Source: Rugalucina vietnamica
Taxonomy: Eukaryota; Mollusca; Bivalvia; Lucinida; Lucinidae
Assembly: GCA_964017185.1 (NCBI GenBank)
Contig: OZ024878.1
Span: 1,890,501 to 1,954,500, forward strand
Reading direction: 5' to 3'
DNA length: 64,000 bases
A program made the position numbers and the translations under genes. Under the pieces are notes generated by a model. The model was not told where the DNA came from, searched no databases, and saw only the letters and a program-made list of their open reading frames with translations. Below, one piece after another: positions 4,868-58,800 of the stretch (within the stretch, counting starts at the first letter, position 1; every line of letters starts with the position of its first letter).

Positions 4868-5009
4868 ACTGTTTTCATCAATTTTCAGATTACCAAATGA
4901 TTTTTTATTTGTTGATGATGATGAAGATGATGCCATCAATATTTATAGATTACCAGATGTTTTGTTTGTTGATGAACCACAAATTGCTCTTTGGGACTAC
5001 AACAACAAC

Positions 5010-5066
<57 letters not shown>

Positions 5067-17000: not shown

Positions 17001-20000
17001 CCTGGTGTGGATTCGAGCCCCACAGGGGGCACATTTGAGACAAACTAAGTTTTGCCAGCGGATGTGCTAGGTGGTTTTTCTCGGGGTTCTCTCGTTTTCG
17101 CCCCACCTACTGATTGGTTCGTCTGATATGAGCTGAAATAATCTTGAAAAAGACACTAAGATGAAATTAAAAAATGAAAATAAAAAATGACTGTATCTAC
17201 TCTACATGATGGATATCCAATATTTTTTCAGACCCTCAGAAGATCAGGGCTGAATATATTCCCTGCTGAGGACTCACAGAAATATGTCAGTGTTCAAAAT
17301 AAGGTAGGAAAAAAACATTTTGTATAATTTTGTTAGGAATCAAAATGTTCATTGAATTTTATGAGTTTGTCGCTTGAAAGCAAAGTGATAATTTATTAAG
17401 AAGATTGGCCACACTAATATTCTTTCATGGCCTTATAATTACATTTAGTTGCACCAACCCAGAGTGATTTATACTGGTGATTTATTTTGTAACCTGGAAT
17501 GTCAATTTTATGTCTATATTCAGCATCCATGTGTTGTTAGGAGCTGATGGATATGGTTTCGTGACTTGTAACATTTTAATACTCCAAGTAGAATGCCGAC
17601 ACTCAAGACAGAGAAAGTTCTGTTCCTTGGTGTAATATTTACTGTCAGCTTGTAAAACTTATATTTTCTGTCTATATTCAGCATCCAGTGATTGAAACAT
17701 GGTGTTACGAGCAGATGGCTATGGTTTCCTCAGCTGTAGCATTCTCATACTCAAAGTGGAACGCTGACACTCAAGACAGAGAGAAAGTTTTGTTCCAGTC
17801 TTGTGAAACATTAGAAGATGAGCCACTGCCCGAGGTATGACTTCTATTTGTTCATTTCTTTGCATCAGTTTTCGGGACAGAACTGCCGGTGATGTTACAT
17901 GCATTTCTTTGTTTCTTTCTTGTAATTGAGCATGAAATTATTTTACCATGCATGTTTATGCTAAAATCCTATTTTGTTTTGTTATCTTGACATTTATTAG
18001 CAGGTTAAATAAGTTGGTTGACTCAAACATGAAATACGCAGATTGAGCAGCAAGCATAAAATCCTGACATCACGAAAACATGTCTGTGTAATCGATACCC
18101 CCTTGAATCCCACTTTCATATAGCAAAACTGGGGTATGCAGGGATATCCCTATTTTTCTTTTTTTTTGTTCCAAAACATTGATTGCGAGTTCTCGTTAGA
18201 ACCACCTCGGCGAGGTTGTTCTAACGTGTACCCACAATCTATGTTGTGAGCAAAAATAAGAAAAATATTTAAATTTTTCAGCTGAAAATTTTCATTTTTT
18301 AAATCACAAAAAATCTCTGTTTATTGCATGGGCAAGTTTTCGTAATGTCAGGAATTACTTATCTTGGATTTCAATGTATACCTAAACTTAGATGTCAAAA
18401 ACACTAAACTTAGATGTCAAAAACACTAAACTTAGATGTCAAAAACACTAAACTTAGATGTCAAAAACACTAAACTTAGATGTCAAAAACACTAAACTTA
18501 GATGTCAAAAACACTAAACTTAGATGTCAAAAACACTAAACTTAGATGTCAAAAAACTAAACTTAGATGTCAAAAAACTAAACTTAGATGTCAAAAACAC
18601 TAAACTTAGATGTCAAAAAACTAAACTTAGATGTCAAAAAACTAAACTTAGATGTCAAAAAACTAAACTTAGATGTCAAAAACACTAAACTTAGATGTCA
18701 AAAACACTAAACTTAGATGTCAAAAACACTAAACTTAGATGTCAAAAAACTAAACTTAGATGTCAAAAAACTAAACTTAGATGTCAAAAACACTAAACTT
18801 AGATGTCAAAAACACTAAACTTAGATGTCAAAAAACTAAACTTAGATGTCAAAAAACTAAACTTAGATGTCAAAAACACTAAACTTAGATGTCAAAAAAC
18901 TAAACTTAGATGTCAAAAACACTAAACTTAGATGTCAAAAAACTAAACTTAGATGTCAAAAACACTAAACTTAGATGTCAAAAACACTAAACTTAGATGT
19001 CAAAAACACTAAACTTAGATGTCAAAAACACTAAACTTAGGTGTCAAAAAACTAAACTTAGATGTCAAAAACACTAAACTTAGATGTCAAAAACACTAAA
19101 CTTAGATGTCAAAAACACTAAACTTAGATGTCAAAAACACTAAACTTAGATGTCAAAAACACTAAACTTAGATGTCAAAAACACTAAACTTAGATGTCAA
19201 AAACACTAAACTTAGATGTCAAAAACACTAAACTTAGATGTCAAAAACACTAAACTTAGATGTCAAAAACACTAAACTTAGATGTCAAAAACACTAAACT
19301 TAGATGTCAAAAAACTAAACTTAGATGTCAAAAACACTAAACTTAGATGTCAAAAACACTAAACTTAGATGTCAAAAACACTAAACTTAGATGTCAAAAA
19401 CACTAAACTTAGATGTCAAAAACACTAAACTTAGATGTCAAAAAAACTAAACTTAGATGTCAAAAAACTAAACTTAGATGTCAAAAACACTAAACTTAGA
19501 TGTCAAAAACACTAAACTTAGATGTCAAAAACACTAAACTTAGATGTCAAAAAACTAAACTTAGATGTCAAAACACTAAACTTAGATGTCAAAAACACTA
19601 AACTTAGATGTCAAAAACACTAAACTTAGATGTCAAAAACACTAAACTTAGATGTCAAAAAACTAAACTTAGATGTCAAAAACACTAAACTTAGATGTCA
19701 AAAACACTAAACTTAGATGTCAAAAAACTAAACTTAGATGTCAAAAAACTAAACTTAGATGTCAAAAACACTAAACTTAGATGTCAAAAACACTAAACTT
19801 AGATGTCAAAAACACTAAACTTAGATGTCAAAAACACTAAACTTAGATGTCAAAAACACTAAACTTAGATGTCAAAAACACTAAACTTAGATGTCAAAAA
19901 CACTAAACTTAGATGTCAAAAACACTAAACTTAGATGTCAAAAAAACTAAACTTAGATGTCAAAAACACTAAACTTAGATGTCAAAAACACTAAACTTAG

Positions 20001-21154
20001 ATGTCAAAAACACTAAACTTAGATGTCAAAAAACTAAACTTAGATGTCAAAAAACTAAACTTAGATGTCAAAAACACTTAACTTAGATGTCAAAAACACT
20101 AAACTTAGATGTCAAAAACACTAAACTTAGATGTCAAAAACACTAAACTTAGATGTCAAAAACACTAAACTTAGATGTCAAAAAAACTAAACTTAGATGT
20201 CAAAAAACTAAACTTAGATGTCAAAAACACTAAACTTAGATGTCAAAAACACTAAACTTAGATGTCAAAAACACTAAACTTAGATGTCAAAAACACTAAA
20301 CTTAGATGTCAAAAACACTAAACTTAGATGTCAAAAACACTAAACTTAGATGTCAAAAACACTAAACTTAGATGTCAAAAACACTAAACTTAGATGTCAA
20401 AAACACTAAACTTAGATGTCAAAAACACTAAACTTAGATGTCAAAAACACTAAACTTAGATGTCAAAAACACTAAACTTAGATGTCAAAAACACTAAACT
20501 TAGATGTCAAAAACACTAATACAGTGATATTTTGTAGGAGGATTGGTCCCTGTTCCTGATGACCAAGAGACGCTGTATGAAGCTCAAGATGACTGAATTT
20601 GATGAGATATACAGTGAAGAATATGCTGAAGGAACACATGTATGTATACATCTACCTCATAATAGATAAACCTCATTATAGCACACTTCATTAGAAATTC
20701 TTTAGAATGGAGTTTTCAATATAATATGGGTAGGTGTCAACTGGGACTTAAAACAACAAATCAAACTAAATTCTGATTGGTGTATATTTTCCAAGTTCTA
20801 AGAAATTGTCCATAAACTGACATTAAGACCAAGTGCCAAAATGTTGATGTCAGGGAAATTTGAAATTCTGCTAAGGAATTGTCAGGGAGTTTGTTTCTGC
20901 TTGAGTGTGGCAACCCTGCAGCAAAAGAAAGAATTACAATTTATTGTTCATTTTATATATATTTCAATCCATTTATATTTTAATTGATTTATATTTCATT
21001 TTATTTATATTTGCAGTTCAAGTCCAACATGAACCATCTTATCAAGGACATTGTATCAGACGAGGCTAGAGAAAGAATCAACAACACTAGTAACCAATAT
21101 ATAGACTGTGTAACACAGCTACTCTCAGCTACTAAAGTCCTGTCTTATGCATAA
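2843..21154 (+). CDS. DNAI7: DNAI7 (CASC1/CFAP94) axonemal dynein-associated protein, 3' half, nine exons
   Basis: Exons: 2843-2986, 4253-4412, 5092-5198, 6585-6751, 16423-16512, 17232-17303, 17682-17834, 20538-20639, 21017-21154 (TAA). All have AG/GT borders and every junction keeps phase (2 nt carried into the first, then 1, 2, 1, then 0 throughout), giving about 376 residues. Recognisable CASC1 blocks are VVDLRGNHLTGDVFHFNLL with LPPQPKTV, LFVDEPQIARWD, ALFQDAHINMPFQSWEIRP, KWMTPKELI, SGLNIFP, MVSSAVAFSYSKWN and the C-terminal LLSATKVLSYA. The family is about 700 residues long and acts in motile cilia, in axonemal dynein assembly or function. The N-terminal coiled-coil half was not found in bases 1-2842. 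The 9.7-kb intron 6752-16422 is almost wholly transposon-derived. Exons two, three, four and seven have decayed neighbours in the adjoining introns. Identity is from recalled family sequence, not a search. Confidence 0.9.
3098..3370. mobile_element. MITE family D copy 1
   Basis: Ends resemble AAAACATGCCCATG and its inverse. The centre is the palindrome AGAACCGCCTCGGCGAGGCG followed by GTTCT, flanked by inverted copies of CAAAACATAGATTGTGG. Confidence 0.8.
3461..4235 (+). pseudogene. Five decayed tandem copies of DNAI7 exon 4253-4412
   Basis: Upstream of the working exon lie five copies of its acceptor plus about the first 100 coding bases, beginning near 3478, 3633, 3782, 3934 and 4088, a spacing of about 150-165 bp. 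Each keeps a 'tttgttt..cag' acceptor and a recognisable DPPELEYMTY..DSV..LLNK coding core. Copies 1, 3 and 4 carry frame changes or early stops. Copy 5 stays open until a TAA near 4190. Copy 2 is open through its exon-like part. None has the working donor after VTM, so they look like relics of internal tandem duplication and would act as decoy acceptors if used. Confidence 0.85.
4788..4867. repeat. (GAT)n microsatellite 1
   Basis: About 26 uninterrupted ATG/GAT triplets between relic exon fragments in a DNAI7 intron. It is open in several frames only because of the triplet repeat. Confidence 0.97.
5009..5062. repeat. (GAT)n microsatellite 2
   Basis: About 18 GAT triplets directly after a relic exon reading ..WDYNNN, 30 bp before the working acceptor at 5091. 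Confidence 0.97.
5440..6240. repeat. Old interspersed repeat shared with 8150-8600
   Basis: Words such as gagcagctatt, cccaa..aggt and cctcagattctgcag / ccttcagcttctgcag recur in the same order near 5500-5720 and 8185-8580. A 121-codon frame on the - strand (6199-5834) has no recognisable domain, and the + strand is also open for about 90 codons, so I do not call it a gene. Confidence 0.4.
6407..6560 (+). pseudogene. Duplicate of DNAI7 exon 6585-6751 (5' part)
   Basis: This segment repeats the acceptor and about 125 bp of the exon just downstream (YFGTMALFQDAHINMPFQS..EIRPHKTNA). It has one A fewer at the exon start, which shifts the frame relative to the previous exon, an extra codon in QSRGE, and diverges after LLTI with no matching donor. 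It looks like a recent tandem duplication that is not usable as it stands. Confidence 0.85.
6784..7018. mobile_element. MITE family C copy 2
   Basis: Near-complete: TGAGCCGCCTCATG start, perfect centre GCTTCGCAGTAACTGCGAAG, and a decayed inverse end at cacgcacagtttcata. Confidence 0.85.
7045..8090. mobile_element. Tc1/mariner-like non-autonomous element
   Basis: A perfect 27-bp terminal inverted repeat (7045-7071 and 8064-8090), starting CACTGAAAAAAAGTTATAAG, is flanked by TA on both sides (7043-7044, 8091-8092). The 1.05-kb interior has only short frames and no recognisable transposase. TA duplication and size fit a mariner-type MITE. Confidence 0.8.
8612..8806. mobile_element. MITE family C copy 3, end cut by HINE-E
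   Basis: Family C from gcatcatgagaaaacc to cacgacacggct. The closing part of its TIR is replaced by the start of the HINE-E element at 8810. Confidence 0.75.
8810..9310 (+). mobile_element. HINE-E copy 1, 3' truncated
   Basis: 5' end AGCTCACCGGAGC, then the family core (gccaaattttatatgaagca, gatggccgccatgc). It lacks the 3' subterminal box, the hairpin and CTGG. Confidence 0.75.
9311..9637. other. Intron sequence, nothing recognised
   Basis: AT-rich DNA ending in an oligo-T run that is the insertion site of the next element. Confidence 0.4.
9638..11572 (+). mobile_element. HINE-F copy 1 (151-bp tandem core)
   Basis: 5' box ATAGCCCCGCTT (9638-9649), a core of about twelve 151-bp units, inverse box AAGCGGGGCTAT (11537-11548), a six-pair hairpin GTCAGATCCTCTGAC (11550-11564), then AATTCTAG and a host TT. 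The box-core-box-hairpin-CTRR order fits a non-autonomous Helentron (HINE). Frames along the core on the - strand are repeat artefacts. Confidence 0.8.
11575..13027 (+). mobile_element. HINE-F copy 2, directly abutting copy 1
   Basis: The same 5' box starts two bases after copy 1 ends. The core has about nine 151-bp units, one with an internal deletion near 12245-12275. It closes with the inverse box, a near-identical hairpin and CTAG (13024-13027). Confidence 0.8.
13038..15099. mobile_element. 2.06-kb fold-back element rich in GGTCGGCA repeats
   Basis: Ends are inverted copies of GGCTCAAGTACAGTATTGGG continuing into GACCC. Both sides carry GTTTTTTT (13030-13037, 15100-15107), a candidate 8-bp target duplication. 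The interior has runs of GGTCGGCA octamers, two near-identical roughly 430-bp direct repeats (about 14095-14540 and 14540-14900), and internal inverted blocks around gtcaacgccatcttttggta. No coding frame looks real. Confidence 0.75.
15120..15600. other. Intron sequence, nothing recognised
   Basis: Between the fold-back element and a truncated HINE-E. Short frames on both strands have no recognisable domain. Confidence 0.4.
15605..16391 (+). mobile_element. HINE-E copy 2, 5' truncated, beside a splice acceptor
   Basis: One and a half core units, then the decayed 3' box CTCGGGTGAG, hairpin AGGACCATTGGTCCT and CTGG at 16388-16391. It ends 31 bp before the DNAI7 exon at 16423, so the branch-point and acceptor region directly abuts the element. 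Confidence 0.85.
16573..16755. mobile_element. MITE family B copy 3, decayed
   Basis: Retains ggccaagttgttcaaaatta and caaaggattctcacatttt; the second hairpin arm is largely lost. Confidence 0.6.
16926..17190 (+). mobile_element. tRNA-derived SINE
   Basis: The head, 16926-17030, pairs GCCCCTGTGG with CCACAGGGGGC, with an A-box-like TGGCCGAGTGCTTAAGAGC and a B-box-like GGATTCGAGCC, as in Leu/Ser tRNAs with a long variable part. A body of about 160 bp and an A-rich tail follow. It lies in a DNAI7 intron. The tRNA-like fold is interrupted, so a working tRNA is unlikely. Confidence 0.75.
17510..17645 (+). pseudogene. Decayed copy of DNAI7 exon 17682-17834
   Basis: The stretch starting 'tctatattcagcatcca' matches the acceptor and body of the working exon 160-170 bp downstream, including gctgatggatatggttt and acactcaagacagagaaagt. 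Small indels and an early stop break the frame. Confidence 0.85.
18072..18350. mobile_element. MITE family D copy 2
   Basis: Starts cgaaaacatgtctgtgtaat and ends gcatgggcaagttttcgt, with the CTCGGCGAG centre and inverted acccacaatctatgtt arms. Confidence 0.8.
18382..20519. repeat. 2.1-kb minisatellite, 21/22-bp unit
   Basis: About 100 head-to-tail copies of CTAAACTTAGATGTCAAAAA ending in CA (22 bp) or A (21 bp), with very few point changes. The array ends 18 bp before the DNAI7 exon at 20538. The array is stop-rich in every frame. Confidence 0.98.
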
Positions 21155-27957: not shown

Positions 27958-29400
27958 TAGATAGATTATACCTAAATAAGAAATATCACAGGAAAATTTA
28001 CACTAACACTATCTTGCGACTTGATGACTTGTTCCTTACATTCAACATTAAAATTTTTAATGGTCTTTAACTTTTTACGGGGACCAAAGAGTACACACAG
28101 TCACTCAGTTTTCCCTTTAATGTAGAGACAATTTATTGTCTACTAACCATTCCATTACTTCAGACAATTTTCGTGAAATTAACTCTGGGTTTTTATATGA
28201 GAATAATATTGCACTATCATCTGCATATAGAATTAGTTTACAGTCAGCACTGACACTGGTGAACATGTCATTGAATCATTCACATAGCAATGGAACAACA
28301 AAGGCCCTAATATGCTCCCTTGAGGGACTCCACAGTTTACATAGCATGGGCTTGATGTGGTGCCATCAATGGTAACAACTTGTTGTCTATCAGCCAGGTA
28401 AGCTTTAAACCAATCTGTAGAGATTACCCCCAAACCCTCTAACTTTTTACAAAGAATGCCATGATCAACAGTGTCAAATGCTTTTTGTAAGTCAAGCATT
28501 ACCATTCCTGTATAGAAACCTTTTGCATTGTTGCCTTTGATATGATCAATAAAATGGATTAGGTAAGTGTCTGTTGAATAACTGCCCCTAAAGCTTGATT
28601 GGTACTCATATAAAAGATTATTATCTTTGAGAAAGTCATTCAATTGTACTTAAATAGACCTTTCAAGAATTTTTGAAACTATGCTGAGGATACTGACAGG
28701 CCTGTAATTGCTGACATCTAAAGGACTATTTTTCTTAAAAATAGCTCTTACTCTAGCAAATTTCATTACCTCTGGAACAATACCTGTGTTTATTGACTTG
28801 TTTATAATAATTGAAATTGGATGTTTTAAAAATTCTGCTCCATCTTTAATAAACCTAGCAGGTAGACCATCTAGACCTGTGCTTTTACTTATACTTAGCC
28901 TGTTAAGCTCCTTGTAGACAAACTCTTCACTTATCTCTCTAATTTGAAATGTATGATTTTCAGGATTTCTTGAAGTGTAATTTTTTTTTTTAAAACTTCT
29001 GACCCTACGGAAAATATGTTACTAGCACTTGGCAGTTTTGCTGACTTAAGGCTGATGCAGTGTTTGTGAAAAATGAGTTAAAATGGTTAGAATTGTTTTT
29101 TAATCATCACATGTTTCACTGTCAATTTTTAAAACAATTTTAGAACTTTCATTTGGCGTATTTTTATATCCTAAAGATTTAAGTTGTTGCCAAAGTTTTT
29201 TGGGGTCATTTTTATTTTCTTCTACCTTGTTTGAAAAATACTCTGCTTTGCCCTTACTTGTCTCTCTTTGAACCTTATTTCTTAATTTACAATAACTTTT
29301 AAAATCCTCTTGTTTATTATGTTTCTTAAATTTATACAAAAATTTATCCCTACTTTTGATCAAGTCTAAAATTTCAGCTGACATCCATGGTTCTGTTCTA
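27958..29400 (-). mobile_element. Decayed LINE, reverse-transcriptase region
   Basis: Reading on the - strand: a linker frame (29384-29100: WQQLKSLGYKN, NKVQRETSKGKAEYFSNKV), then SNYRPVSILSIVSKILERS with one in-frame TAA, then a 136-codon RT frame (28643-28233: MVMLDLQKAFDTVDH, GVPQGSILGPLLF). A frameshift follows and the YADD box continues in another frame near 28222. The motifs fit a CR1/L2/Jockey-like non-LTR element. It is 5' cut by a HINE-E insertion and bordered at its 3' side by the TIR element. Inactive. Confidence 0.85.
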
Positions 29401-38386: not shown

Positions 38387-38624
38387 ATGAGCTGCCACAT
38401 CAGAAAACCAACAATCTGCATATGTGAAAAAAAGGAGCAGATCAGCCATGAGGCAACTTCACAGCTAATCAGCGCCTTTGTTTTTGCTCTACACATAGTG
38501 CTGTCCCTCTACTTTTCAAATACGAAAGTTCAAGCTAGCTTGCTTCTGTGGCTGTACAGGCTGGTTTGTGTAAACACCTGGTTGGAAACCGAAATTGTTG
38601 GTTTTTACATGTGAAGGCTCAAAT
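38387..38624. mobile_element. MITE family C copy 10
   Basis: atgagctgccacatcagaaa to acatgtgaaggctca, with a damaged central palindrome. Confidence 0.75.
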
Positions 38625-38810
38625 AAAGATCTTGTATATCACAAACTATGGAGTCTGAAAATAGGGCTACTTCACAATACAAGGATCATCATGTGCCTTT
38701 GTTTTGGCAAATGCTCCCCCCTCCTCCCCCACCCCAAATAAAAAAGGAGAGTGGTTCATATAGATTTGTTCTGTAATTTTTTTTCACAGGTTTTGAACAT
38801 TCAACAACAG

Positions 38811-40014
38811 TTTTGGAAACATACATAGATATATTACCAGATTATAACCATGGCTGAGGGATTCAACAGTCACAGTTTTGATGATGATTGTATGATCATT
38901 CCTAATACCCCAAGGTTGGTATACATAGATATATTACCAGATTATAACCATGGCTGAGGGATTCAACAGTCACAGTTTTGATGATGATTGTATGATCATT
39001 CCTGATACACCAAGGTTGGTATACATAGATATATTACCAGATTATAGCCATGGCTGAGGGATTGAACAGTCAGCGTTTTGATGATGACTGTATGATCATT
39101 CCTGATACACCAAGGTTGGTATACATAGATATATTACCAGATTATAGCCATGGCTGAGGGATTCAACAGTCACAGTTTTGATGATGACTGTATGATCATT
39201 CCTGATACACCAAGGTTGGTATACATAGATATATTACCAAATTATAGCCATGACTGAGGGATTCAACAGTGACAGCTTTGATGATGACTGTATGATCATT
39301 CCTGATGCACCAAGGTTGGTATACATAGATATATTACCAGATTATAGCCATGACTGAGGGATTAAACAGTCACAGTTTTGATGATGACTGTATGATCATT
39401 CCTGATACACCAAGGTTGGTATACATAGATATATTACCAGATTATAGCCATGGCTGAGGGATTGAACAGTCACAGTTTTGATGATGACTGTATGATCATT
39501 CCTGATACACCAAGGTTGGTATACATAGATATATTACCAGATTATAGCCATGGCTGAGGGATTCAACAGTCACAGTTTTGATGATGATTGTATGATCATT
39601 CCTGATACACCAAGGTTGGTATACATAGATATATAACCAGATTATAGCCATGGCTGAGGGATTCAACAGTCACAGTTTTGATGATGACTGTATGATCATT
39701 CCTGATACCCCAAGGTTGGTATACATAGATATATTACCAGATTATAGCCATGGCTGAGGGATTCAACAGTCACAGTTTTGATTATGACTGTTTGATCATT
39801 CCTGATACCCCAAGGTTGGTATACATAGATATATTACCAGATTATAGCCATGGCTGAGGGATTGAACAGTCACAGTTTTGATGATGACTGTATGATCATT
39901 CCTGATACACCAAGGTTGGTATTTATAGATATATTACCAGATTATAGCCATGGCTGAGGGATTGAACAGTCACAGTTTTGATGATGACTGTATGATCATT
40001 CCTGATACACCAAG
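38811..40014 (+). repeat. Twelve 100-bp tandem copies of the start exon
   Basis: ATG codons fall at 38850, 38950 and every 100 bp to 39950 with no length change. Each unit holds a short 5' untranslated part, the start codon, 21 codons (MAEGFNSHSFDDDCMIIPDTP and variants) and the donor AG|GTTGGT; the last copy has AG|GTTTGT. Only the first copy is preceded by a strong polypyrimidine acceptor (38781-38789). Read-through from one unit to the next ends at a TGA that overlaps the next ATG. Copies differ by scattered substitutions, some changing residues (P-N-T-P, GLNSQRF, DSF..DAP, DYDCL). Confidence 0.97.
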
Positions 40015-43000
40015 GTTTGTATATTATCTTTGACATGATCTGAACCATATGAGCCACATCATGAGAAAACCGGATGTTTTGCCTATGCGAAAACAAATCC
40101 ACAGATCAGCTTTGCAGTAACTGCAAAGCTGATCAGCGCCTTTGTTTAAGCTACATGGGTAGTACAATTCCTCTACTTTCTAAGTCCAAAATCTCCAGCC
40201 TCAAGCCATTTTCTGTGACTGTATAGGCTGGTTTGTGTCGGACCTGGTTGGAAATTCCAAAGACTGGTTTTCACGCATCACGGCTCATATGGTAGATTAG
40301 TTGATGTGTGTCCTTTCATAAGCAGTGGACCCAAGATGGTGGACATGAATCATAAATACCCCGTGACCAAAAATATACCAATTAATCATGCGAGGATTAG
40401 TAAGCAGATGAATTGGCTTCAGCGAGCGGCTTCAGCGAACCCTTTCATCTGCTTACAATCTGATCGTGATAAATCAGTTTATTTTTGGTCACAGGGTAGA
40501 TATTCACTTTGTAATGCAACGAAAGCAGACAAATTTCGCGAAAAAACTAACCCGATATGAGGAGATTTGCTTTTCCGCCGTTTTTATTTAGTCAACAGCT
40601 CAGCAATTACTCTGCAGAATGACTCCTCAAAATTCGCCACCATAGCAGTAAATTTTGTTGATAATTTATGTTTTTCTTGTCCATTGTTTCTTCTACATAA
40701 CTTTGCATAACAATGGCGGAGATTGACATCACAAAACGTGACTAAATTTGATGTCACAGGAGCGCTTCTTTTTGGTGCGTTAAACAAAATTGCAACTCGG
40801 TCTTTATTTAGTCAGTAGCGATGGCCTTTATTAGGTCAGTAGCTAAATAAAGCTACTATTTATGAACCACACTTTATTAGGCTGATATGTAGGGTTATTG
40901 CATTATAAAAATACGTAATCATCTAGATTTGGTTTGCATGTAATTGTTCAATATGTGTAGCCATAATGATAACGGGTATCATAAAATATTAATCAAAGCC
41001 GTAACATTTCTGATATACTTAAAATTTACAATTAAATGTTGTTTTTCAGCCCAGTCTTCAAGAGGAAAGCACAACTCCCTATCAACAACATATCTCCCAT
41101 CAAGAAGTGTAACTCTGGCTCAACCGTCAGTATGTCTCCCCCAGCGGGGGGCCTCAGTCTGCCGGGATCACCCAGCTTTGCCAGTGAGAGAGCTGAAGCT
41201 GTAAGACGCAAAAAGATGAAAGATAAAATATCAAATAGACTTGTGAATAATGGTCTTTCCCCTGTGAAGAGATTATCACCTGACAAAGCTGGATTTGTGA
41301 AAAGTTCAACACTGGTGAATAATTTGTTAGGCTCTAGTGTTACAAAATCTCCAAGTAAAAATAGTGGTGCCTGTGCTTTGGATAGTTTGAAGCGTGACTT
41401 ATCACCCAATATGTTATCGCCAAATCTTTACGAGCGGATAAAAGGAAGGCAGAGAAATAAAATCCAGAACAAAGCAGTTTCAAATGCTTCTGCCAGTTAC
41501 GGATGGCCTTCAGATTCAGATTCTTCGGACGATGAAATTTTAGCCAGTGCTGTTGACTCACTTCAAAGGCAGCATCAAAGTAGAACAAAAATTACAAATG
41601 ATAAAGAATCAGTACCATCCAGATTTTCTCAGGTGAAAAAACATACCAATAAAGATGTGGTACAGATGTTTCTAGATAGTGACGATGATGAGGTAGAATT
41701 TGTCCCACCATTACCGTCAAGAATCAAAAACAAAACAAAATCAGCTACTCAGACTTCAGCAAGAAGTCCAGGGAAGTCAGAGACTATATTAAACCACTCG
41801 CCTATTAAAATAGCAAGCAAATCTCTTAGTCCTACTAAACTGAACAGAGTTATTGATAAACATGAACCAAAGAATAGATGTAAGCACCCTGAATGGTGCG
41901 GTAGTAAAGTTTCTAACACATCCAAACAGAAATGTGATAGACATTGTGATAAACAAATAAGCCCTCATCTTGAAAATCTAACATCCATGTGTTCAAATCT
42001 ATGCAGGTTAAAAAGTGCCTCCAAAGAAAGTTCAAGTAATATAGAAAGTTCTAATGATAGTAACTTGACTGATTCACAAACTACACATGTTGATAGAAAG
42101 AGAAAACATGAGACTGTTTCCACATTTTCTCATGTAGACTTGACCGGTACAAGAAATTCTCTGTATTCTCCTGATGGTTACAATAAATTTGTGACTGGTT
42201 TACAAACTTCTAATAATAGCAATGAGATAGCTCCACGCAGTAGACTGGAAAGAAAGAAAACACGAGAGACACAGTCTGGAATGAGCTCTCAAGACTCCCT
42301 TGTGACTGGTTCTCATAGTCCACCCAGCAGACTTGAGAGAAAGAAAATGCGAGCGGCACAGTCTGGTGTAAATTTCCAAGATTCCAACCTGACTGGTTCT
42401 CATAGTCCTCCTAGCAGACTGGAAAGAAAGAGAAAGCTAGGTGCCCAGTCTGAAGGCTGGATGTCAAAAGTTCCCAGGCCTACTACCAGTACCAGAACCA
42501 AGACACCTACAAAGGATAGAGTAACAGGTTTGAATATAGATCCATATAAGCTGTGAGTAAATTGACTTGCCTTTGGAATGAGCATAGTCCATCAAAATCT
42601 GAGCCTCTGGTTAAAATTTTGCTTAAAAATGGACATGTTATCAAAGGAGTTTCTTTAAACGACATTCAGCATGAAATTATTTTCAATTTTGGTGTAAAAG
42701 TACTGTACATGTATTACTGTTGACCCAAATATCAAAAGTACAGGAACTTATACAGCTGAAAACACCATCAACTATAACAGCCTTTAAATAAATTTTCTGA
42801 ATACCAGTTTGATATATGTGAAAATGATGAGAAATGCCTATAACTTAAATAGAATAGAATAATTCTATGGTAAGTCCTTGCATATGGTACTTGTTTATGA
42901 CAATTTTAGAGATAAAAAGTTTTAGTTTTTAGGATGTTTCTAAATAAAATATGCACCAAAAATGGCCTGGAAACTCATGCCAGCTAATTATGTTTTGAAA

Positions 43001-43609
43001 ACTCTGCTTTAAAGGCTTTCATGTCATCATGACGTCACAATATAGCATTAACCAAAATCTACGGTATGCAATGACATCAACGTTTGGGTGGTGCCTTGTA
43101 ACAAGCATAAATAAAATCTGTATATTAGTAGCCCACACTCGCACCAGTTGCCTGATTAATACACAGCTTACATCTCCATTTATGCATGCCTGTTAATTCA
43201 CTGTGACATTGATATTTATGCAATAATATATACTTCAGTATTATCTGGAGATGATGCTACTCCAGAAACCAGAAATATCATCAATGTTGTCAGCCAGCTC
43301 GAGAAAGATGAAGAAGTTGCTAGGCAACTACAGGTGAGCTTCCAGTTGCTAAGCAACCACTGGTGAACGATTTGTTGCTAAGCAACTAAAGATGGGCTTC
43401 AAGATGCTTAGCAATCAGTATGGGAACTCCTTGTTGTCAGGCAACTACTAATAAGCTTCTATTAACTTTACAACTTTGTTAATTACGTTGAGCTCACTCC
43501 TTACCTGACTGAGAAATTGTCAACTTAGGTGTTAAAATTCAACTTTCAAACAAACATTTGCTTCATTAATCATTAATGCAAACAAATAATACAAAAATTG
43601 TTGACTCAG

Positions 43610-43649
<40 letters not shown>

Positions 43650-46600
43650 TAGTTAAACAAACATTTGCTATATTGATGCAAACAAATAACAGTGATAAGA
43701 AAATGCCCATGTTAGCTGTTAAATTTCCTTTCTATGTGTTAAGGAAGAACTAGACCGCGAGTTTGCCCTTCACCTTCAAGACCAGAGTCATGACAGCGAG
43801 AGTGGAAGATCAGGGTCACGTGATCCATTCTCCGAGGTGTCAAGGTCGTCAGAACATTTTTCTGAGGAAGAAGATTATCGTTACCATTCCCCTTTTGGAG
43901 ATATAGGAGGTCATGGTGTTGCTGGTGGTCGTAGGGGGAATACTAGGCCACGACCAGACTGGCACATGTTCGACCCAGTTACCATGGGGAGAAATAGGAG
44001 AAGAAGAGGTATGATATTAATGTGTTCATTCTGTTAAGCAGGTGAAGTGCTTAGCTTTAAAAAGATAATTCAAATTTGAATCAAATTTCACAATTCATAC
44101 TTAAAATGAAATCAATGCTTAAAGTGCAAATGTCAATGTTCCAAAACCAAATTGATATGATGCTTATTAATGGTTTCCCATTCTTGGAAATTATTCCTCC
44201 AAAATGCAAAATAAAAAACTTCAAGCCTCCAGATGTCCTCCTTGTTTGTGGTTAACTTATAGACCACAGTTTGTCTCAGACCATGTTGGAAACCCATAAC
44301 ATGATATGATCTGTGTAATGAAAAAAAAAAGAAGAAACTGCACGGTTGATCAGCGCCTTTAATTTGTTTTCACTAAACTGAAAGTACTATTACTCTTCCT
44401 AGAATTATTACTCTTCCTGGAATTTCAAACATCTCCTGTGACTGTATGGACCGGTTGTGTCAGACCTGGTTGGACACCTGAAAACAGTGTGTGTTTTTTT
44501 TTTTTTTTGTGTCACGGCTCATGACTGAATTTAAATGTTTAACATATCTCTTTCAGATGATACAGCAGCGATGGAGGTGAGTTGTATTTTATGTCTACAC
44601 TTCTGCAATTCTTGCTCCTATGCGAGGCCCTACCAGTGGGTTTAGCACAGTAAAGAGTAAAGTCTAAGTAAGAATGTGGAGAAAATTTTGTAGTAAATAT
44701 TTTATTGTTTTGCAGTGCATTTCTGTCATTTTGCTTTCCATACTTGTACTTGACCAGTGTATTTTATCATAAATCTGACTTTAGGGTTTCATGTAAATAG
44801 TAACACATTTTAGTTTAGCTGCAAAATTGAAACTTTTTCATCACTCAGTTTACAATAATACCGTATACAAGTCATGATGTGAGAGAACCAGTCTGGGATT
44901 TCCGACCAGGTCCCAGTTGTTCAAAACTAATGACGTTGTTAGTTAAGGTTTCGATGAAATTTCAAACATGAACTGCAAAGGATTCTCACATTTTTTCAAC
45001 AAAAAATAAGTGTTTTACTTTTAATTTGTTACTTTAGCTAATATTTGCTTAAAAAAATTTATGTCTTAACGATATCGTTAGGCTAACGATGCTTTGAACA
45101 ACTGGGTCCAGGTCCGACACAAACCAGCAAGAAAGCTAGAATCTCAAAATTTTGGGTAAATGTAGAAGTAAGGGGTGTTTGTATTATGTATAATGAAAAC
45201 ATAGGCGCTGATCAGCTGTGTTAATGCACAGCTGATATGCGCTTTTGTTTTCGCATAGGCAAAAATCCAGTTTTCTCACGACGGGGCTTGTACATCTTAA
45301 AACTTTTTGTGCAATTTCAGTTAGAACAACTAATGGCAGAGACTGCAAACAGCCTACGAGTTGGTTTTGGTAGGTAGTTAAAAAATTATAAAACTGGCTT
45401 TTAAGAAGACTAAAAATTTACAAATGGACATGTGATCTCTGTCTTTCGAATTTCCTTTTTACAGCAGTTTCAGTCCTTTCTGGTACTTGATTTTTGTAAG
45501 CAAGACATTTTAAACTAAATACAGGTGACTCTCATTCAAGTTATCAGTATTACGACTTTACCAAATCATGACATCATAGCTACCAAAATCATAAGAAGCT
45601 ACAGTGAACTCGACAATAGAGAATCATCGACAATGGCGAACCACTCGTGAAGATATTGCAGAATTTCTTGAAACTTAGACAAAATATAATTTATTATATT
45701 ATTCAGTCATTTACTTTCATCTATGCCTTGGGGTTTGGTAAAAGAATGGAGTCAAAATTCCACCGGACAATAAAATCAGGGTTGCTGAAACGCTTGACCC
45801 CTTAACTAAGATGCCTAGTTTATTGTTCCACAAAAAGTAACGTTCAGATTAAATGTGTTTCATACCTCGTTTCTAAGCATTTGATGATGACCACTTTTGC
45901 ATTACTTTAATGCCTAATATCCCTAGTTATGCGATATGCCTGTTTTTGATAAAAGGTTTGACACTGAAGGTAGATGTAAGCGGGGAAACATGTACATGTA
46001 AATTCGACAATAGCGAATCATACTTTGTGTGGTGAAAAGAATGTGCACAAAATACTGATAATCTACCTTTAGAAGGCTTGCCCTGGAACCATTTGGTTTG
46101 GTTAATGGAGTAACTAATATTGGTGCAAGTCGTGGTTTAACCATCTTGCTTTTAGGCTTAAATTGATTCGTTAAAGCAATAAGACATGCTAAATCGGTAA
46201 AATTGACCTTTCCGATATGGCATTTGCTGTTGACAGTTAACGTAAAGCACAAAAGCAAATTAACACAATATTGTCGAACACCATTTAGTTTCGAATGATG
46301 ATGGCACCATTTGTGTGCAAAAATACTCTTCTAAAATGGTTTCTTATGGGCTATAGACTATCTGATTCGCCATTGTCGAGTTTGGTTCGCCATTGTCTAA
46401 TGCAGGAGGTATCATATCAACAGAGTTATCTCCCATTAAGAAAATGAATGAATTAAAATTATTTTTTCCTATAAAGCTGAGATATGTTAGATGTTCTTAG
46501 TATCAAATAGAATAACATTCCCATGGTCGTGTTTAAAATAATAGCGTTAGATTTCTTAGTGATTCGCCATTGTCGAGTAAACTGTATAATGTAACTGTAT

Positions 46601-49600
46601 TTGTAACTTTGCAAATACAATGCATGCACAAGTTTTATAATGACACTATATAAAAGAAGACAAAATCAATTAAGGACAACTGAAATCACTTAAAGGTGCT
46701 CAGCACCGACTTGTTCAACAAGAGATCAACCGAGACCTGCTCAAACAGTAAATGTAAATCCGACAGATAATTATGTCACGCATGTGTGGTTGTAAAATCA
46801 GCTGATTGCAAAACACGTCTGTTTTTGTAGCTAGGTTAATTGGGGAAATTAAAAATAATTTAAAGGATTTGAATAGCTGAATCAGGTAAGATTTGTTTGT
46901 TCTTTTATCTTTTGTTGAAAATTGTTTACAATTGTTGTTTTCCTGAATTAAAAATAATTCATTTGGAGTCAGAGGATATGCAAAAATACATAAAAAACTG
47001 TACATATGAGAGTATGTACACAGACCTCATTTTTATTGAGATGTGGCGGTCGAGTTAAGAGTTGTAAAATGAACAAAACTTTCATGACTGATGCACAAAA
47101 CTTGTGTCGGGTTACCCGTTTTGTTGATTTAAGCATAGTTTGAGTTATGCCTTGTTGAAATACAAAGAACATTTTGGGCAAGCGATCTGGACCAGTGTTA
47201 AGATTGGACATAAACGTAGTATCGAGGTAAGCGTTGTCGAGCCACCTGTATAAGTGCACAATATGTTTTTTCAATTTCCTGGTTTTTGTTTTGTTTCCTT
47301 GCAGGAGAACATTTTGAGATGCCTTTGGTGAGTGGGATTTCCTTTATTTTCGCCAACCATATGTTTAGTCCGAACGCGCTCTCTGTTGTTTGACATATAC
47401 ACAAATGATAGCAAGCACATACTTTATTTCCCACACTGATTAAATAAGGAGGAAATCGTAAAAAAGAACTTACAAAATGATGATCTGGTCAATATGTTGA
47501 TTAATCATTTTATGTTCCTTTCAACTAAATACCACAATACAATGCCATATTTGCTTTATCATAAGAAGTCGCTGTTTTCCAGTGGATAACATCATATTAT
47601 AAAAATTATATGACCACACATGTAATAAGACTTTTGCGGGAATATGTAATGTCATTGACGATGTCCGTAACAACAATGTAAATTTTTATTGAAAATATGT
47701 CCACTTAGATGGCAATAAAATCCTATTTTAAAAGTCATATGATAAAATGAATCTTACACTCGTAGTCATTTCATATGAAATTTATTAAACTCGCTGAAGG
47801 CTCGTTTAATAAATTTCATATGAAATGTCCACTCATGTAAGATCTTCTATATAATTTTACAATTTATTATTTGGTTTAAGCCCAGTGGTGCCAGAAGTCG
47901 TCGCCGAAGAGGTCGTGTTGGGAGAGCGGGTGTGTTCTCTAATATAATGATTACCAGCCCGAATACTTCAGGAAATGATTACGAGGTTTGTTAATCTACA
48001 GAAGTGAGAACAGCATTCCTTTTTGTTTAGTTTTTAAATCATTAATACATACTTTTAAATCATTAAAATATACTTTTAAGTCATTAAAACATACTTTTAA
48101 ATCATTAAAGCATACATGTACCTTTAAATCATTAAAACATACTTTTAAATCAATAAAACATACTTTTAAATCATTTAAACATACTTTTAAATCATTACAA
48201 CATACTTTTAAGTCATTAAAACATACTTTTAAACATTAAAACATACTTTTAAACATTAAAACATACTTTTAAACATTAAAACATACTTTTAAATCATAAC
48301 ATACTTTTAAATCATTAAAACATACTTTTAAATCATTAAAACATACTGTCATCAATCATCACTCATGTTCAGAAAAAAGAGAAGTTTTACCTCAGAAATT
48401 TGGTTCTGTACATGTTGGTCTATAATGAATAAACAGTAAAGACTGATAAGACTAAATCCCTTTGGGTTGTCTGATTTTACGTCTGAAGACTCAAGGACGG
48501 ATCCAGGATTTCTGGAAGAGGGGTTCAAAGTCACCAAGGGGGGTTCATTTTCTACATTTTGTCTTATCTTTCCCCATGAAATTGAAATAGTTTGGTTGAG
48601 CGAAGCCCCTCTAACTCCACCAGTGCGACTTATTAAAATAGCAGAGTATAAATTTTTGTCGCAAATAAGTATAGTTTTCACTGAATGATCAGTGGTTTGG
48701 AACAACTATGGCTTGAATGGGCTTGTTGCTAAAATAGATTTAGGTGGGTGGTTTTTATATCAATAAAGCTTTAGATATAGGCATGAAAAAATCTAGCATG
48801 AGCGTAACTATCTTCAGGCCTTGATGCAACTAGGAGAAATGCTTGGTGATGCCAAGAATAAAGGCCTGTCAAAGACCGATCTTCAGCGACTGCCGACAAC
48901 AATCTTCAAGGCCGACGAAAATAATCCTAACACGGAGTGCCATATCTGTATGGACGACTACGAGGCGGGGGACAGTCTAAAAATACTGCCGTGTTTCCAT
49001 AGTTACCATGGAAAATGTATTGACAACTGGATAAAGGTGAGTTGACGACATTTTTCATGGGAGAGTGCTGACTTAACGGTAGAGCTTCAGCCTCAGACTT
49101 GAGAAGGGGCAGGAGGGGGGGGAAGGGGCGGGGTTTTGGGGGTTTAATCATACTGTCATCAACAAGGGAAGTCTAAAGCAAAGACATTCCTAAATGGAAT
49201 CAAATTACATTGTATTTAGAATATGTTTCTAAACGTTTATGCTTTGAATACTTTGAATATTCTCACTGGTCTCAAAGGACTGAAAGAAAATACATATATG
49301 AGGAAACTTTTTAGGGCCATCATACAGGTATGGCTAGGAAGTCAAACCACAAATCTTATGGAATCTTTATGGTTTGCGGCAGGTAATAAACACATCAGCA
49401 TGATCGGCTACTGTAAGTCTGAAAACCGTAGCTCGACTTTAGTCATCAGCGCTCTTTATGAAATATTACAGCAGTTTTCAGGCTTTGTACAACTATTTAA
49501 TAATAATGGCATAAAAGACAGAATGTTTCCAGTTGTTTTTCAGTTGTAAAGGAGGGCAGTTTCTTTTCTTGAATGTGTGCATATACCTGTATTTGTTTAC

Positions 49601-49883
49601 GAGCCTTCGCATGAAGAAACCAACTATTTGGATGTTTAACCAAGTCTGACACAAACCAACGTGTACAGTCACAGAAGCAAGTTAGAAAGTTGAAATTTTA
49701 GAGTTAAGGAGAAGAGGAATTGTACTATCAGTGTAGCGAAAACAAAAGTGCTAATCAGCTGTGCAGCCTTTGTTTATGCATATGCAAATTGTTTGTTTTC
49801 TTATGTGGTGGCTCATATTTATTTTTTTTTTTCAGCAAAATGCCACCTGTCCTGTGTGCCGTGTTGAGATTAGACTAAGCTGA
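38850..49883 (+). CDS. RING-H2 E3 ubiquitin ligase with N-terminal SIM-like motif (788 aa)
   Basis: Exons: 38850-38914 (or any of eleven further 100-bp copies, the last 39950-40014), 41050-42527, 43239-43333, 43744-44008, 44557-44576, 45321-45369, 47305-47327, 47881-47985, 48818-49036, 49836-49883 (TGA). Phases agree at all junctions and the total, 2367 nt, is divisible by three. The N-terminus has FDDDCMIIPDTPS, an acidic-flanked hydrophobic core like a SUMO-interacting motif. The middle is Ser/Lys-rich and probably disordered. KDEEVARQLQ then EELDREFALHLQ (about 537-558) resembles a ubiquitin-binding MIU-type helix. The C-terminal RING-H2 has C741, C744, C759, H761, H764, C767, C778, C781. 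AATAAA at 49964-49969 is a possible poly(A) signal. E3 activity follows from the RING; the SUMO link is inference. I could not assign a named orthologue. Confidence 0.87.
40048..40290. mobile_element. MITE family C copy 11
   Basis: Complete: TA|TGAGCCACATCATGAG to CATCACGGCTCA|TA, centre GCTTTGCAGTAACTGCAAAG. Starts 33 bp after the last start-exon copy. Confidence 0.85.
40357..40498. mobile_element. 142-bp TIR element
   Basis: Ends TACCCCGTGACCAAAAATA and inverse TATTTTTGGTCACAGGGTA, with an inner inverted aagcagatgaa. Confidence 0.75.
42239..42430 (+). repeat. Coding tandem repeat in the RING-H2 gene
   Basis: Two and a half copies of a roughly 27-residue unit, SRLERKK.R..QSG...QDS then TGSHSPP, from about residue 419. 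The phase is kept, so this is a genuine peptide repeat; it is basic and Ser-rich. Confidence 0.85.
43316..43460 (+). repeat. 29-bp tandem repeat across the exon 3 donor, with palindromic boxes
   Basis: Palindromes at 43316 (GTTGCTAGGCAAC), 43345 and 43374 (GTTGCTAAGCAAC), 43403 (GATGCTTAGCAAT) and 43433 (GTTGTCAGGCAAC) are spaced 29, 29, 29 and 30 bp. The first lies in the last codons of exon 3 and its unit includes the donor CAG|GTGAGC. The second unit carries a donor-like CTG|GTGAAC. The boxes resemble RFX X-boxes. Confidence 0.85.
44225..44523. mobile_element. MITE family C copy 12, decayed
   Basis: In a RING-H2 gene intron; keeps actgcacggttgatcagcgc and the end gtgtcacggctcat. Confidence 0.6.
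44875..45290. mobile_element. MITE family C copy 13, split by family B
   Basis: Left part 44875-44909 (tgatgtgagagaaccagt to ccgaccag) and right part 45109-45290 (caggtccgacacaaacc to ctcacgacggggct) join in family order once the family B element is removed. Confidence 0.8.
44910..45108. mobile_element. MITE family B copy 4, nested in C
   Basis: Ends GTCCCAGTTGTTCAAA and TTTGAACAACTGGGTC, flanked by CAG (44907-44909, 45109-45111). One hairpin arm is mostly lost. Confidence 0.8.
45602..46584. mobile_element. Tc1/mariner (pogo-like) non-autonomous element
   Basis: Ends CAGTGAACTCGACAATAGAG and CAGTTTACTCGACAATGGCG (as inverses), flanked by TA on both sides. Further GATTCGCCATTGTCGAG copies lie inside near 46000 and 46368. 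A 111-codon - strand frame (46258-45923) shows no transposase motif I recognise. Confidence 0.7.
46600..47300. other. Intron sequence, nothing recognised
   Basis: Between RING-H2 gene exons. Short frames at 46715-47274 (-) have no recognisable domain. Confidence 0.4.
47767..47827. repeat. Perfect 24-bp-arm hairpin
   Basis: CATTTCATATGAAATTTATT continuing to AAAC pairs with its exact inverse after a 13-nt loop; probably a MITE core. Confidence 0.85.
48027..48347. repeat. 20-21-bp AT-rich minisatellite
   Basis: About fifteen copies of acatacttttaaatcattaa in the intron before the RING-coding exon. Confidence 0.95.
49598..49822. mobile_element. MITE family C copy 14, in the intron splitting the RING
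   Basis: gagccttcgcatgaagaaac to cttatgtggtggctcat. It ends 14 bp before the last exon's acceptor; the central palindrome is reduced. Confidence 0.75.
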
Positions 49884-55831: not shown

Positions 55832-58800
55832 TCAGCATACTCGTGATGATTTATCAGGACTAATGAATTTCAGGAGTCCAGTGATACAGTTTCTAGCATG
55901 ATTTCGAATTTCTTTCAAGTTCTCAAGAACATCTTTTGGATTATCATTAGCACCATACTGTAGTGTGTTACAAATGGACACGGTCAACGCCGTCATCCGG
56001 CTCGTGATCTTGTCTACCGCGGGTACCTCCTTATCGGGGTATACCATTTCGAGGTAAATCGGCACGTGCTCCGCGATACGATGTAGTTCCGAGTATAAGT
56101 CTAGCATGTTCTCCAGGAAGTCACGTGTTTTACTGGCTTCGTCAACGTATACAGTTCCTGGAAGCTCGAAGTCAAATGATACAGGTTCATTCCGTTTTTC
56201 AGCGCACTGAACATAGCGTTGAAGGCTGAAAGCCAAGTTTTTCATAGGGCCTTTCATGTTTCTTATTTTTACGTTGTGGCGTTGGATCCTGTGTTCTAGT
56301 GCAGTCTTATACCAGTCTGCACGGTCGTCGCTGCTCCTGATCTTTGAAATAAGATAGTCCTCTGGTTGAATGCTCTTTGTGACCGTCCCGTGCAAGTTAT
56401 TGTAACCGTGTTTGTAGCAATAGTCCCCGTGACTTATCCCGTTCCATTTCTTCCCGCACCCCCAGCAGAACACTTCACCACATGGACAAGACATGCAAGG
56501 ACAGCCTCCATCCTTTTCAAAGAACCGTTTACATGACGGACAGCTTTTTCCCCTTGAGACAAACAGTGGTATGCGTTTCGCTGGCATCATGTTATCGTCG
56601 CCATATCCAGTAATTCTACGATGGTACCCTGCAATGGCGCGGCATGGAGCAGGCCAGTGAGCGTCTCCGAGGCATTCAAAACAGACCTTCATTCCGCACT
56701 GGCAGCTCGCCGTCTTAACCTGCGGAGAAGATACGGTAAGGACTGCGCCACAGTTTGAATTTGGGCACCATTTTGTTTTTGACTGTCGCTCAATGTCTAA
56801 ATCGTGGGTAAACCGTAAATATTTCAAGACATGGTTGACGTCAGTCAGGGAAAGCAGTGTTCCGTTATCAACTATCGTCTTACAATCATATTCGGGGCAA
56901 ACCAAACGAGTTTTCCCATCACCGATTCTTGTAAGAAGGTGCACCTTCCAACACGGATCACAGAACCAATGGCTGCAGGCCATCAGGGCTGTTCCAGTCA
57001 AAGACTCTCCAACTGCCTCGAAACATATGGAACAGAATTTATCTTTCGGTGATGAAATGTCTTTTGGCTCTCCTGCAAAGACGTCCATCTTAGATAGATG
57101 CTCGAATCCTGACCGTTCTCCGTCGCTTTCCCCGTGGCCCTCCTTTGTATGGAAACACATTTTGATGAGGACTTTGTTGTCCAGTCGGTAGGATTGTGAC
57201 TTCCAATCAGCACACTCTTCAAGATTAGAAGAAGAAGCTGATCTCGTAGGCACAGGGGGAGCTTTCTGCTTCTTAAATGCTTCATACGGCAGCATGTCTA
57301 CAAAGAATATGGTTTGCTTGATGATTTCATCAATGTTTGTGAGTGTGTAATCAAAAATGGTCTGTATCTTCACCTTGTCCATTTTCACAGTGAACGGCAT
57401 GTTTAAATAAACCTTGTAAACCTCCTCCTTCGGGTTGTTAATTTCATTCTCTACGTCTTGTACAAACACAAGACAGGCAAATGTGAGATCGGCCCTTGTC
57501 CATCTGATGGACTTAAGATTTGCCAGCTTTGACACATCATTGGTAATGTTAATGACAAATTTTCGCGGGAAACATTCACATTCTAATAGCCCATTTCCGA
57601 ATTTCTGTTTCAATGTCCATTCATCAGCGTCTTCTGATGAAAGAATAACCGTCACCGGCTCTAGGGTCGTGGAATAGTTCAGGCCTTTCACAAATTTCAG
57701 GCTAGGAATCCGTTTCTCCTCTGAATCTACGGCATCATCAAAGTCAGCCTCGGACTTCGGCCTCGGCAAGTTTTTCTTCTCATTGTTTCCGTTCGACCTA
57801 CGTTGTTTACCACTGGACATGACGAGCATCTGAGCTTTGTTGGCGTGGAACATGATTTCCTGGAGCGTTACTTCGTCATTCTCCGCCGGGAGTTCTTCGT
57901 CGGAGTAGTAGAAATCGTCGTCGGGTTCAGTGTCACTCTCTTCAAACATTTCTAGCGATTCGTCGATATAGTCGGCGAATTTTGATCTTGTCTTCATCAG
58001 TTTGGCTCGACGTTTGACCCTTGCATTCTCACTGTAGCTCGGGTCAATGTATTTCGGATTGTGGGTGATCGAACTAGTGACTGGACTTGGGTACGTTATC
58101 TCGTACCGGACTTCGGGGAGGCTAAACTCCTCTGAATTTTGCTCCAAGGTTTCATTAACGTCGTTAATTTTAAGTTTGTTTGTACTTTTGTCTGAATTCT
58201 TTCGTCGTCTTTTACCCTTGTTAGCTGGTTTGGCGTTCAAGATACTGGCAATCTGGAAATAGCCCCTATGCCTTCTCCCGCGCCTAGTCCGTTTACGGCT
58301 ATTTTCCTTACTGGTATGCCTAACGTTGCCAAAGTTTGACGTAAAACTGACACAGTTCGCCTTTTTCAAGAGCCTATGCTCCTCTACGAGCTGAACGCCG
58401 TAGTTTTTGTCTTGGAAATGACCGTGTATGATGTTATCTCGGAGTAGATCAGGCAGGCTCCATCGTCCTTTCTTATTCAAGGAAAACTCGATATTTTCGA
58501 ATTTGTTGATTGTTTCTGGAAGACTGTCGGTTAGTGCGTCGACAACGTCGTTTTCTTTCCCGACCAGTCTTCGGCGAATACTTGAATGCAGACTGGAAAA
58601 GAAAGCATTAATAACAGCATATATGTTTAGCTACATGTGCTCTTGCTTATTCGTGAATAAGTAAGGCTAGCATGCATCTAATGCATTTGGTTGTAATGTC
58701 ACAAATTTTTCATATTGGTTATGCACTAGTCATTTGTAATCACGGGCCCCATCCCCGGGGGATGGCGGGGATAGCCGTGGAAATGAGCGGAGCTTTGACC

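Follow-up and report, generated by a model that had tools for sequence, protein, structure and literature searches.

The putative start exon of a RING-H2 ligase gene of the lucinid bivalve Rugalucina vietnamica stands twelve times in a row, each time with its own ATG and its own splice donor. This arrangement raises two questions. First, does the repeated unit really serve as a protein-coding start exon? Second, if it does, can a choice among the copies change what the gene makes, or are most of the copies passengers? Both questions were addressed in a window of 64,000 nucleotides (GCA_964017185.1, contig OZ024878.1, positions 1,890,501 to 1,954,500 of the forward strand), and all positions given here are counted from its first letter. 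All twelve units were located between 38821 and 40020, and the eleven spacings between them are each exactly 100 bp. Tandem Repeats Finder places the array at 38821-40023 with a period of 100, 12.0 copies, a match of 96%, 0% indels and a score of 2210. A sequence-only reading of this DNA had counted twelve copies of exact length, none with a base gained or lost, and this count holds. The array and its leader are composed as follows (a slash marks the exon boundary):

38790..38820 (+): 5' leader segment that follows the strong acceptor tctgtaattttttttcacag/GTTT
38821..40020 (+): tandem array, 12 x 100 bp, the unit consisting of 29 nt of leader, 65 nt of coding sequence (21 codons + 2 nt) and 6 nt of intron start
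38850..38914 (+): copy 1, the proposed working start exon, MAEGFNSHSFDDDCMIIPNTP + AG, with the donor AAG/GTTGGT
38950..40014 (+): copies 2-12, of putative use, with ATGs at 38950, 39050 ... 39950 and donors after 39014, 39114 ... 40014

Every one of the twelve units has an ATG, 21 open codons and AAG/GT in phase 2, as the acceptor at 41050 requires, so that the earlier description of 21 codons and a GT donor in phase for the next exon is true of the whole set. The donor reads GTTGGT in eleven units and GTTTGT in copy 12. There is no ATG from 38790 to 38849, and an in-frame TAG is found 24 nt 5' of the ATG of copy 1, which excludes an N-terminal extension in the frame of copy 1 from the acceptor at 38790. 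Eleven distinct sequences occur among the twelve units (copies 7 and 11 are identical), with a mean pairwise identity of 95.8% (range 91-100), and the 21-residue peptides of the twelve copies are of seven different kinds. The similarity of copies is only weakly related to their distance apart (Spearman 0.17, P 0.12). Tandem arrays are error-prone in assembly, and the animal might have fewer copies than the contig does. We find this hardly credible, because repeated assembly of one stretch would not yield eleven distinct units; in addition, an array of 1.2 kb is small compared with long reads, should these have been used.

The exact unit length of the array is ordinary. Among 22 arrays with a period of at least 50 and at least 3 copies, taken from the window and 20 sampled stretches (overlapping rows and the start-exon array are included), 10 have 0% indels as rounded, and all five arrays with a match of at least 88%, again with the start-exon array among them, have 0% indels. 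A coding repeat read through the array was rejected, as no stop-to-stop ORF of at least 70 aa overlaps the array on either strand. A structured RNA unit was not convincing either, the z-scores being -0.63, -1.22 and -1.43 for the three of the twelve units that were folded, and no known RNA family matched at gathering score anywhere in the window. In these three folded units, the CCAUGG at the ATG pairs with the unit's own donor region (CCAAGGUUGGU or CCAAGGUUUGU), with energies not clearly better than those of shuffles.

When copy 1 is joined to eight further exons, 787 open codons and a stop codon result. The remaining exons of this predicted nine-exon model, which was built from phase and splice signals, are:

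41050..42527 (+): exon 2, entered in phase 2, with the sole strict SIM match, DDEVEFV (aa 234)
43239..43333 (+): exon 3 (predicted)
43744..44008 (+): exon 4 (predicted)
44557..44576 (+): exon 5 (predicted), 20 nt
45321..45373 (+): exon 6 (predicted)
47886..47985 (+): exon 7 (predicted)
48797..49036 (+): exon 8, bulk of the RING-H2 domain, with a poor acceptor score of -9.4
49836..49883 (+): exon 9 of the gene model, end of the RING-H2 domain and stop codon

In exon 8, an in-phase AG (read from the sequence and unscored) lies 21 nt downstream of the modelled acceptor. The predicted protein matches zf-RING_2 above the cut-off (aa 739-781, E 2.8e-14), and a C3H2C3 pattern was read in it by eye; by this domain the gene product would be a RING-H2 E3 ubiquitin ligase. 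Compared with solved structures, the RING is closest to RNF38 (3.9e-17), then to RNF13 and RLIM, with Arkadia at 2.5e-11 and RNF4 at 8.6e-5. In the 1.09-Gb genome (47 contigs), the array unit has at least six matches, all inside the array, and no paralogue of exons 1-2 was found elsewhere at E of 0.001 or below; among 21 protein matches, the nine outside the locus cover the RING region only. No relatives were found in viral contigs, and none of the four pattern matches in bacterial and archaeal genome contigs was confirmed. The COX1 of the genome has an open frame under the invertebrate mitochondrial code, the one code applied. Exon 2 itself contains 87-bp (29-codon) repeats at 42227-42452 (+), in 2.6 copies. 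A single open frame of 932 aa at 55835-58630 (-), with IBR above the Pfam cut-off and a RING match below it, is probably an RBR-type ligase that is intronless in that stretch.

As for the first question, the array unit is likely, though not proven, to be a protein-coding start exon, as had been claimed from the sequence. The phase fit, the start context and the in-frame upstream stop point this way, and so does codon use: home-made codon scores, for which exons 2-9 of the RING gene and the window's RBR-type ORF served as training set, give 4.9 bits for the 20 codons that follow the ATG of copy 1, a value matched by 2.7% of 11,326 stop-free non-coding stretches and attained by 35% of stretches from the same gene, itself part of the training set. 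Start contexts and splice sites were likewise given home-made scores, based on general frequencies and not fitted to this species. By these scores, ten of the twelve units fall in the top 4.1% of the 1604 plus-strand ATGs of the window, and copies 5 and 6, which are without G at +4, fall in the top 9.2%; the good context ascribed to every ATG is thus right for ten units and too generous for two.

The identity of the start exon is not proven because, of the eight ATG-donor pairs in the right phase that lie outside the array from 36 to 41 kb, three have higher scores than the array pairs. The protein might begin in or just before exon 2, where an in-frame ATG is present at 41036, just 5' of the exon, or it might begin at an upstream exon; in either case the array would be an intronic or upstream minisatellite, and its open stretch would be incidental. 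Set against the phase fit and good start context of the array unit, its seldom matched codon score and the strong acceptor 60 nt 5' of its start codon, such a start elsewhere appears rather unlikely to us.

The acceptor at 38790 scores 8.2, the best value between 36.5 and 41.06 kb and within the top 0.12% of the 3346 plus-strand AG sites of the window. Only weak AGs precede the other copies, which agrees with the earlier observation that the first copy sits behind the sole strong acceptor. Eleven of the 12 copies (all but copy 5) have an in-unit acceptor at -9, which scores between -5.1 and -1.8, mostly -3.1. Since the modelled exon 3 acceptor has a comparable score of -3.4, splicing to single units may occur. 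If these in-unit acceptors were used, or if transcription began in several units, slightly different N-termini could be made, and seven peptides would be at hand among the twelve copies. Such alternative starts have a parallel in Drosophila hydra, which has nine homologous initial exons; seven have DINE-1 beside them, and four or more can serve as start sites (PMC9013439). The array is like hydra in its repeated initial exon, its nearby dispersed elements and its common downstream exons (PMC9013439). It is unlike hydra in that its units are head-to-tail at 100 bp, that it has one strong acceptor, and that the elements stand on either side of the complete array and not beside single units:

38387..38643 (+): dispersed element of ~200-250 bp, left of the array, in the same orientation as the right copy
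40047..40290 (+): second copy of the dispersed element (~200-250 bp), right of the array

Further copies of this element occur across the window. Alternative starts are very improbable here, as units of 100 bp would leave little room for one promoter each, copy 5 is without the AG at -9 of the eleven others, and the divergence among copies is neutral.

Turning to the second question, what would happen if different donors were used? The unit donors score 2.3 (top 3.8% of 3409 GT sites) and that of copy 12 scores 1.4 (top 5.7%). Because all twelve score alike, score strength does not choose among them. Duplicated 5' splice sites reportedly can favour the site closest to the downstream acceptor, which here is that of copy 12. 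Short exons are generally preferred, and a copy 1 exon of 125 nt suits a gene whose eight modelled introns measure 410-2512 nt. Counted from 38790, the exon would be 125 nt long with donor 1 and 225-1225 nt long with the later donors. The earlier expectation that upstream ATGs are kept when a later donor is used is borne out by the sequence: donor k would retain k-1 of them (1-11 for the later donors), mostly in strong context, and copy 1 has none after 38790.

The upstream frames run for 35 codons to a TGA in ten of the twelve copies. The frame of copy 8 is 28 codons long and closed by a TAA, which leaves 13 nt to the next ATG and no overlap, and that of copy 12, which no further copy follows, ends after 27 codons; the frame of about 35 codons proposed for each upstream ATG is therefore found in all copies except these two. 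The proposal that the TGA overlaps the next ATG needs correction, as the two share no bases; the TGA lies 2 nt beyond the ATG, and it is the frames that overlap, by 8 nt. Frames of 35 codons that end just past the next start are expected to be unfit for reinitiation. The 28-codon frame of copy 8 is below the 30-codon mark of a review on reinitiation, and a frame of 29 codons that overlaps the main start by 1 nt is described for SLAMF1 in the same review, where factors are said to be able to relax the distance rule. Poor translation is expected from the later donors because most of the retained upstream ATGs open frames that overlap the next start; little protein would come from the resulting RNAs, which, given the further downstream junctions, could also fall to nonsense-mediated decay. 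A donor switch is predicted to lower output and not to swap peptides, since the peptide of a later copy would stand behind the upstream frames; its efficient production would need leaky scanning, unusual reinitiation, array-internal starts or in-unit acceptors.

It is conceivable that this loss of output is put to use, with a regulated fraction of transcripts using later donors, the upstream frames repressing translation and triggering decay, and the copy number setting the strength of the brake. The eleven identical donors and the near-identical twelfth would suit such a brake, as would the 1-11 retained ATGs with their mostly strong contexts and the ten of twelve 35-codon frames that end just past the next start, where reinitiation is not expected. 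It seems unlikely, however, given that the later-donor exons of 225-1225 nt go against the general preference for short exons and that selection preserving these features was not detected (P = 0.27 under neutrality). If the brake were real, alleles with different copy numbers would differ in ligase output. A copy-number rheostat, in which donor choice sets the number of upstream frames, and repeat length together with splicing tunes ligase output, is in our judgement quite unlikely.

The evidence on selection comes from the differences among the copies. Counted per site and base against the consensus and not on a tree, the copies show 19 distinct changes, of which 10 are nonsynonymous, 3 synonymous, 5 in the leader and 1 in the intron part. 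Under neutrality, simulated in 20,000 trials with a transition weight of 2, the expectations are 8.9, 2.4, 5.5 and 1.2, respectively. The nonsynonymous share is as under neutrality (P of the observed value or less = 0.42), and the ATGs, frames and donors are all unharmed in 27% of the neutral trials. Because both the classes of change and the rate of intact features match the simulation, the copies taken together give no sign of strong constraint or of diversification, though with 19 events weak constraint would be hard to detect. Neither diversifying nor purifying selection among the copies was seen, the mix of nonsynonymous and synonymous changes being neutral.

The sequence-only reading had also suggested that each unit encodes a core like a SUMO-binding motif (SIM) and that residue differences between copies could change it. 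Three strict SIM patterns were applied with shuffles as control and gave one match in 787 aa (shuffle P 0.09), the DDEVEFV of exon 2. The core of exon 1, DDDCMII, fails all three strict patterns and fits a relaxed pattern only (shuffle P 0.23); a loose hydrophobic-core pattern has 4 matches against 5.2 in shuffles. Core residues are altered in one of the twelve copies (copy 10, D12Y and M15L), the other changes lying before the core (A2T, F5L, H8D/Q, S9R) or after it (D19N, T20A). As the core fails the strict consensus and varies in a single copy, a SUMO-binding switch by copy choice is unsupported, and with a neutral mix of changes the idea that the copies diversify the motif is unsupported too. 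RNF111/Arkadia and RNF4 are SUMO-targeted ubiquitin ligases (PMC8161396). The predicted ligase may resemble them in having putative SIM-like stretches N-terminal and a RING C-terminal; it differs from them in that its RING is nearest RNF38 and that the one strict SIM match lies outside exon 1.

How, then, should the array be classified? With adjacent homologous copies in one gene, it may be called a tandem exon duplication, the exon status being predicted. Judged by splice sites on both sides, all twelve units have donors, and a strong acceptor stands before copy 1 only; the array is a duplication of the 3' part of the exon plus its donor. A minisatellite is a head-to-tail array of units of ~10-100 bp with high identity. 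Twelve units of 100 bp with a match of 96%, in one assembly, agree with this definition, and the array appears to belong with the exonic minisatellites, here over a start codon and a splice donor. TYMS has a 28-bp VNTR in the 5'-UTR, and the array is similar to it in being a minisatellite towards the 5' end of a gene, with a possible effect on expression; to our knowledge the TYMS units do not contain a start codon plus donor. Human UGT1A has variable homologous first exons, each with a promoter, that encode the substrate-binding site (PMC9013439). The array is like UGT1A, with several homologous first exons joined to shared exons, and unlike it, with units 95.8% identical, own promoters and a role in the substrate site being known for UGT1A only. 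Among the titles and abstracts of open papers that were listed, tandem exon duplication is described and no minisatellite of a start codon plus donor was found, which is no proof of absence.

The surroundings of the array are rich in repeats. Tandem arrays (period at least 16, score at least 78) make up 21.1% of the window against 6.2% of 189,395 unmasked bases sampled elsewhere. Three other exon edges in the window have tandem repeats, with matches of 68-78% against 96% for the start-exon array. A DNAI7-like gene at 3479-4412 (+), named via solved chains (best E 4.7e-07; the joined piece matched no Pfam family), has an acceptor-plus-exon module six times, the first at 3479 and the last at 4253. 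Four of the six copies have a stop in the homologous frame, that at 3634 is open and loses the likeness, and the last is open. In its next exon, at 4889-5200 (+), partial copies at 4889 and 4949 come before the full one at 5092, with long GAT/TGA runs intermixed. At the end of exon 3 of the ligase gene another repeat begins:

43316..43447 (+): 29-bp tandem repeat across the donor of exon 3, starting at the end of that exon, CAG/GTGAGC being kept in one of the five copies read, the first

The process behind the DNAI7 and exon 3 repeats may be the one that also produced the start-exon array, which would then be a young example of it. The window also contains a 22-bp unit repeated 98 times at 18382-20519 with a 98% match, and a reverse transcriptase fragment at 28236-28649 (-) (RVT_1, E 1.5e-16).

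We propose that a 100-bp segment of a single-copy RING-H2 ligase gene, from the leader to 6 bases into intron 1, was tandemly duplicated to give twelve copies, the duplication of an exon edge being the source of a young exonic minisatellite. Transcripts would enter at the acceptor 38790 and be spliced from the donor of copy 1 (38914); the resulting exon of 125 nt would have no upstream ATG, and copies 2-12 would then fall in intron 1. One or more exons 5' of 38790, outside the model, could add further ATGs. What the sequence itself shows is the array with its regular phase, a gene model that stays open and divergence that looks neutral. That copy 1 works and copies 2-12 are passengers in a young, neutrally evolving minisatellite is, on balance, the probable explanation. 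Because RNAs from later donors should translate poorly and risk nonsense-mediated decay, the array would be mainly a passive burden or a weak brake on output, and not a source of protein variants.

The locus appears to offer a natural snapshot of a young exon-edge duplication at a start exon, with twelve donors and twelve starts of near-equal quality. It would directly test which of many duplicated 5' splice sites is selected and whether a gene tolerates upstream starts in series. More diverged stages of the process may also be present in the window, in the pseudo-exons of the DNAI7-like gene and in the decayed donors of exon 3.
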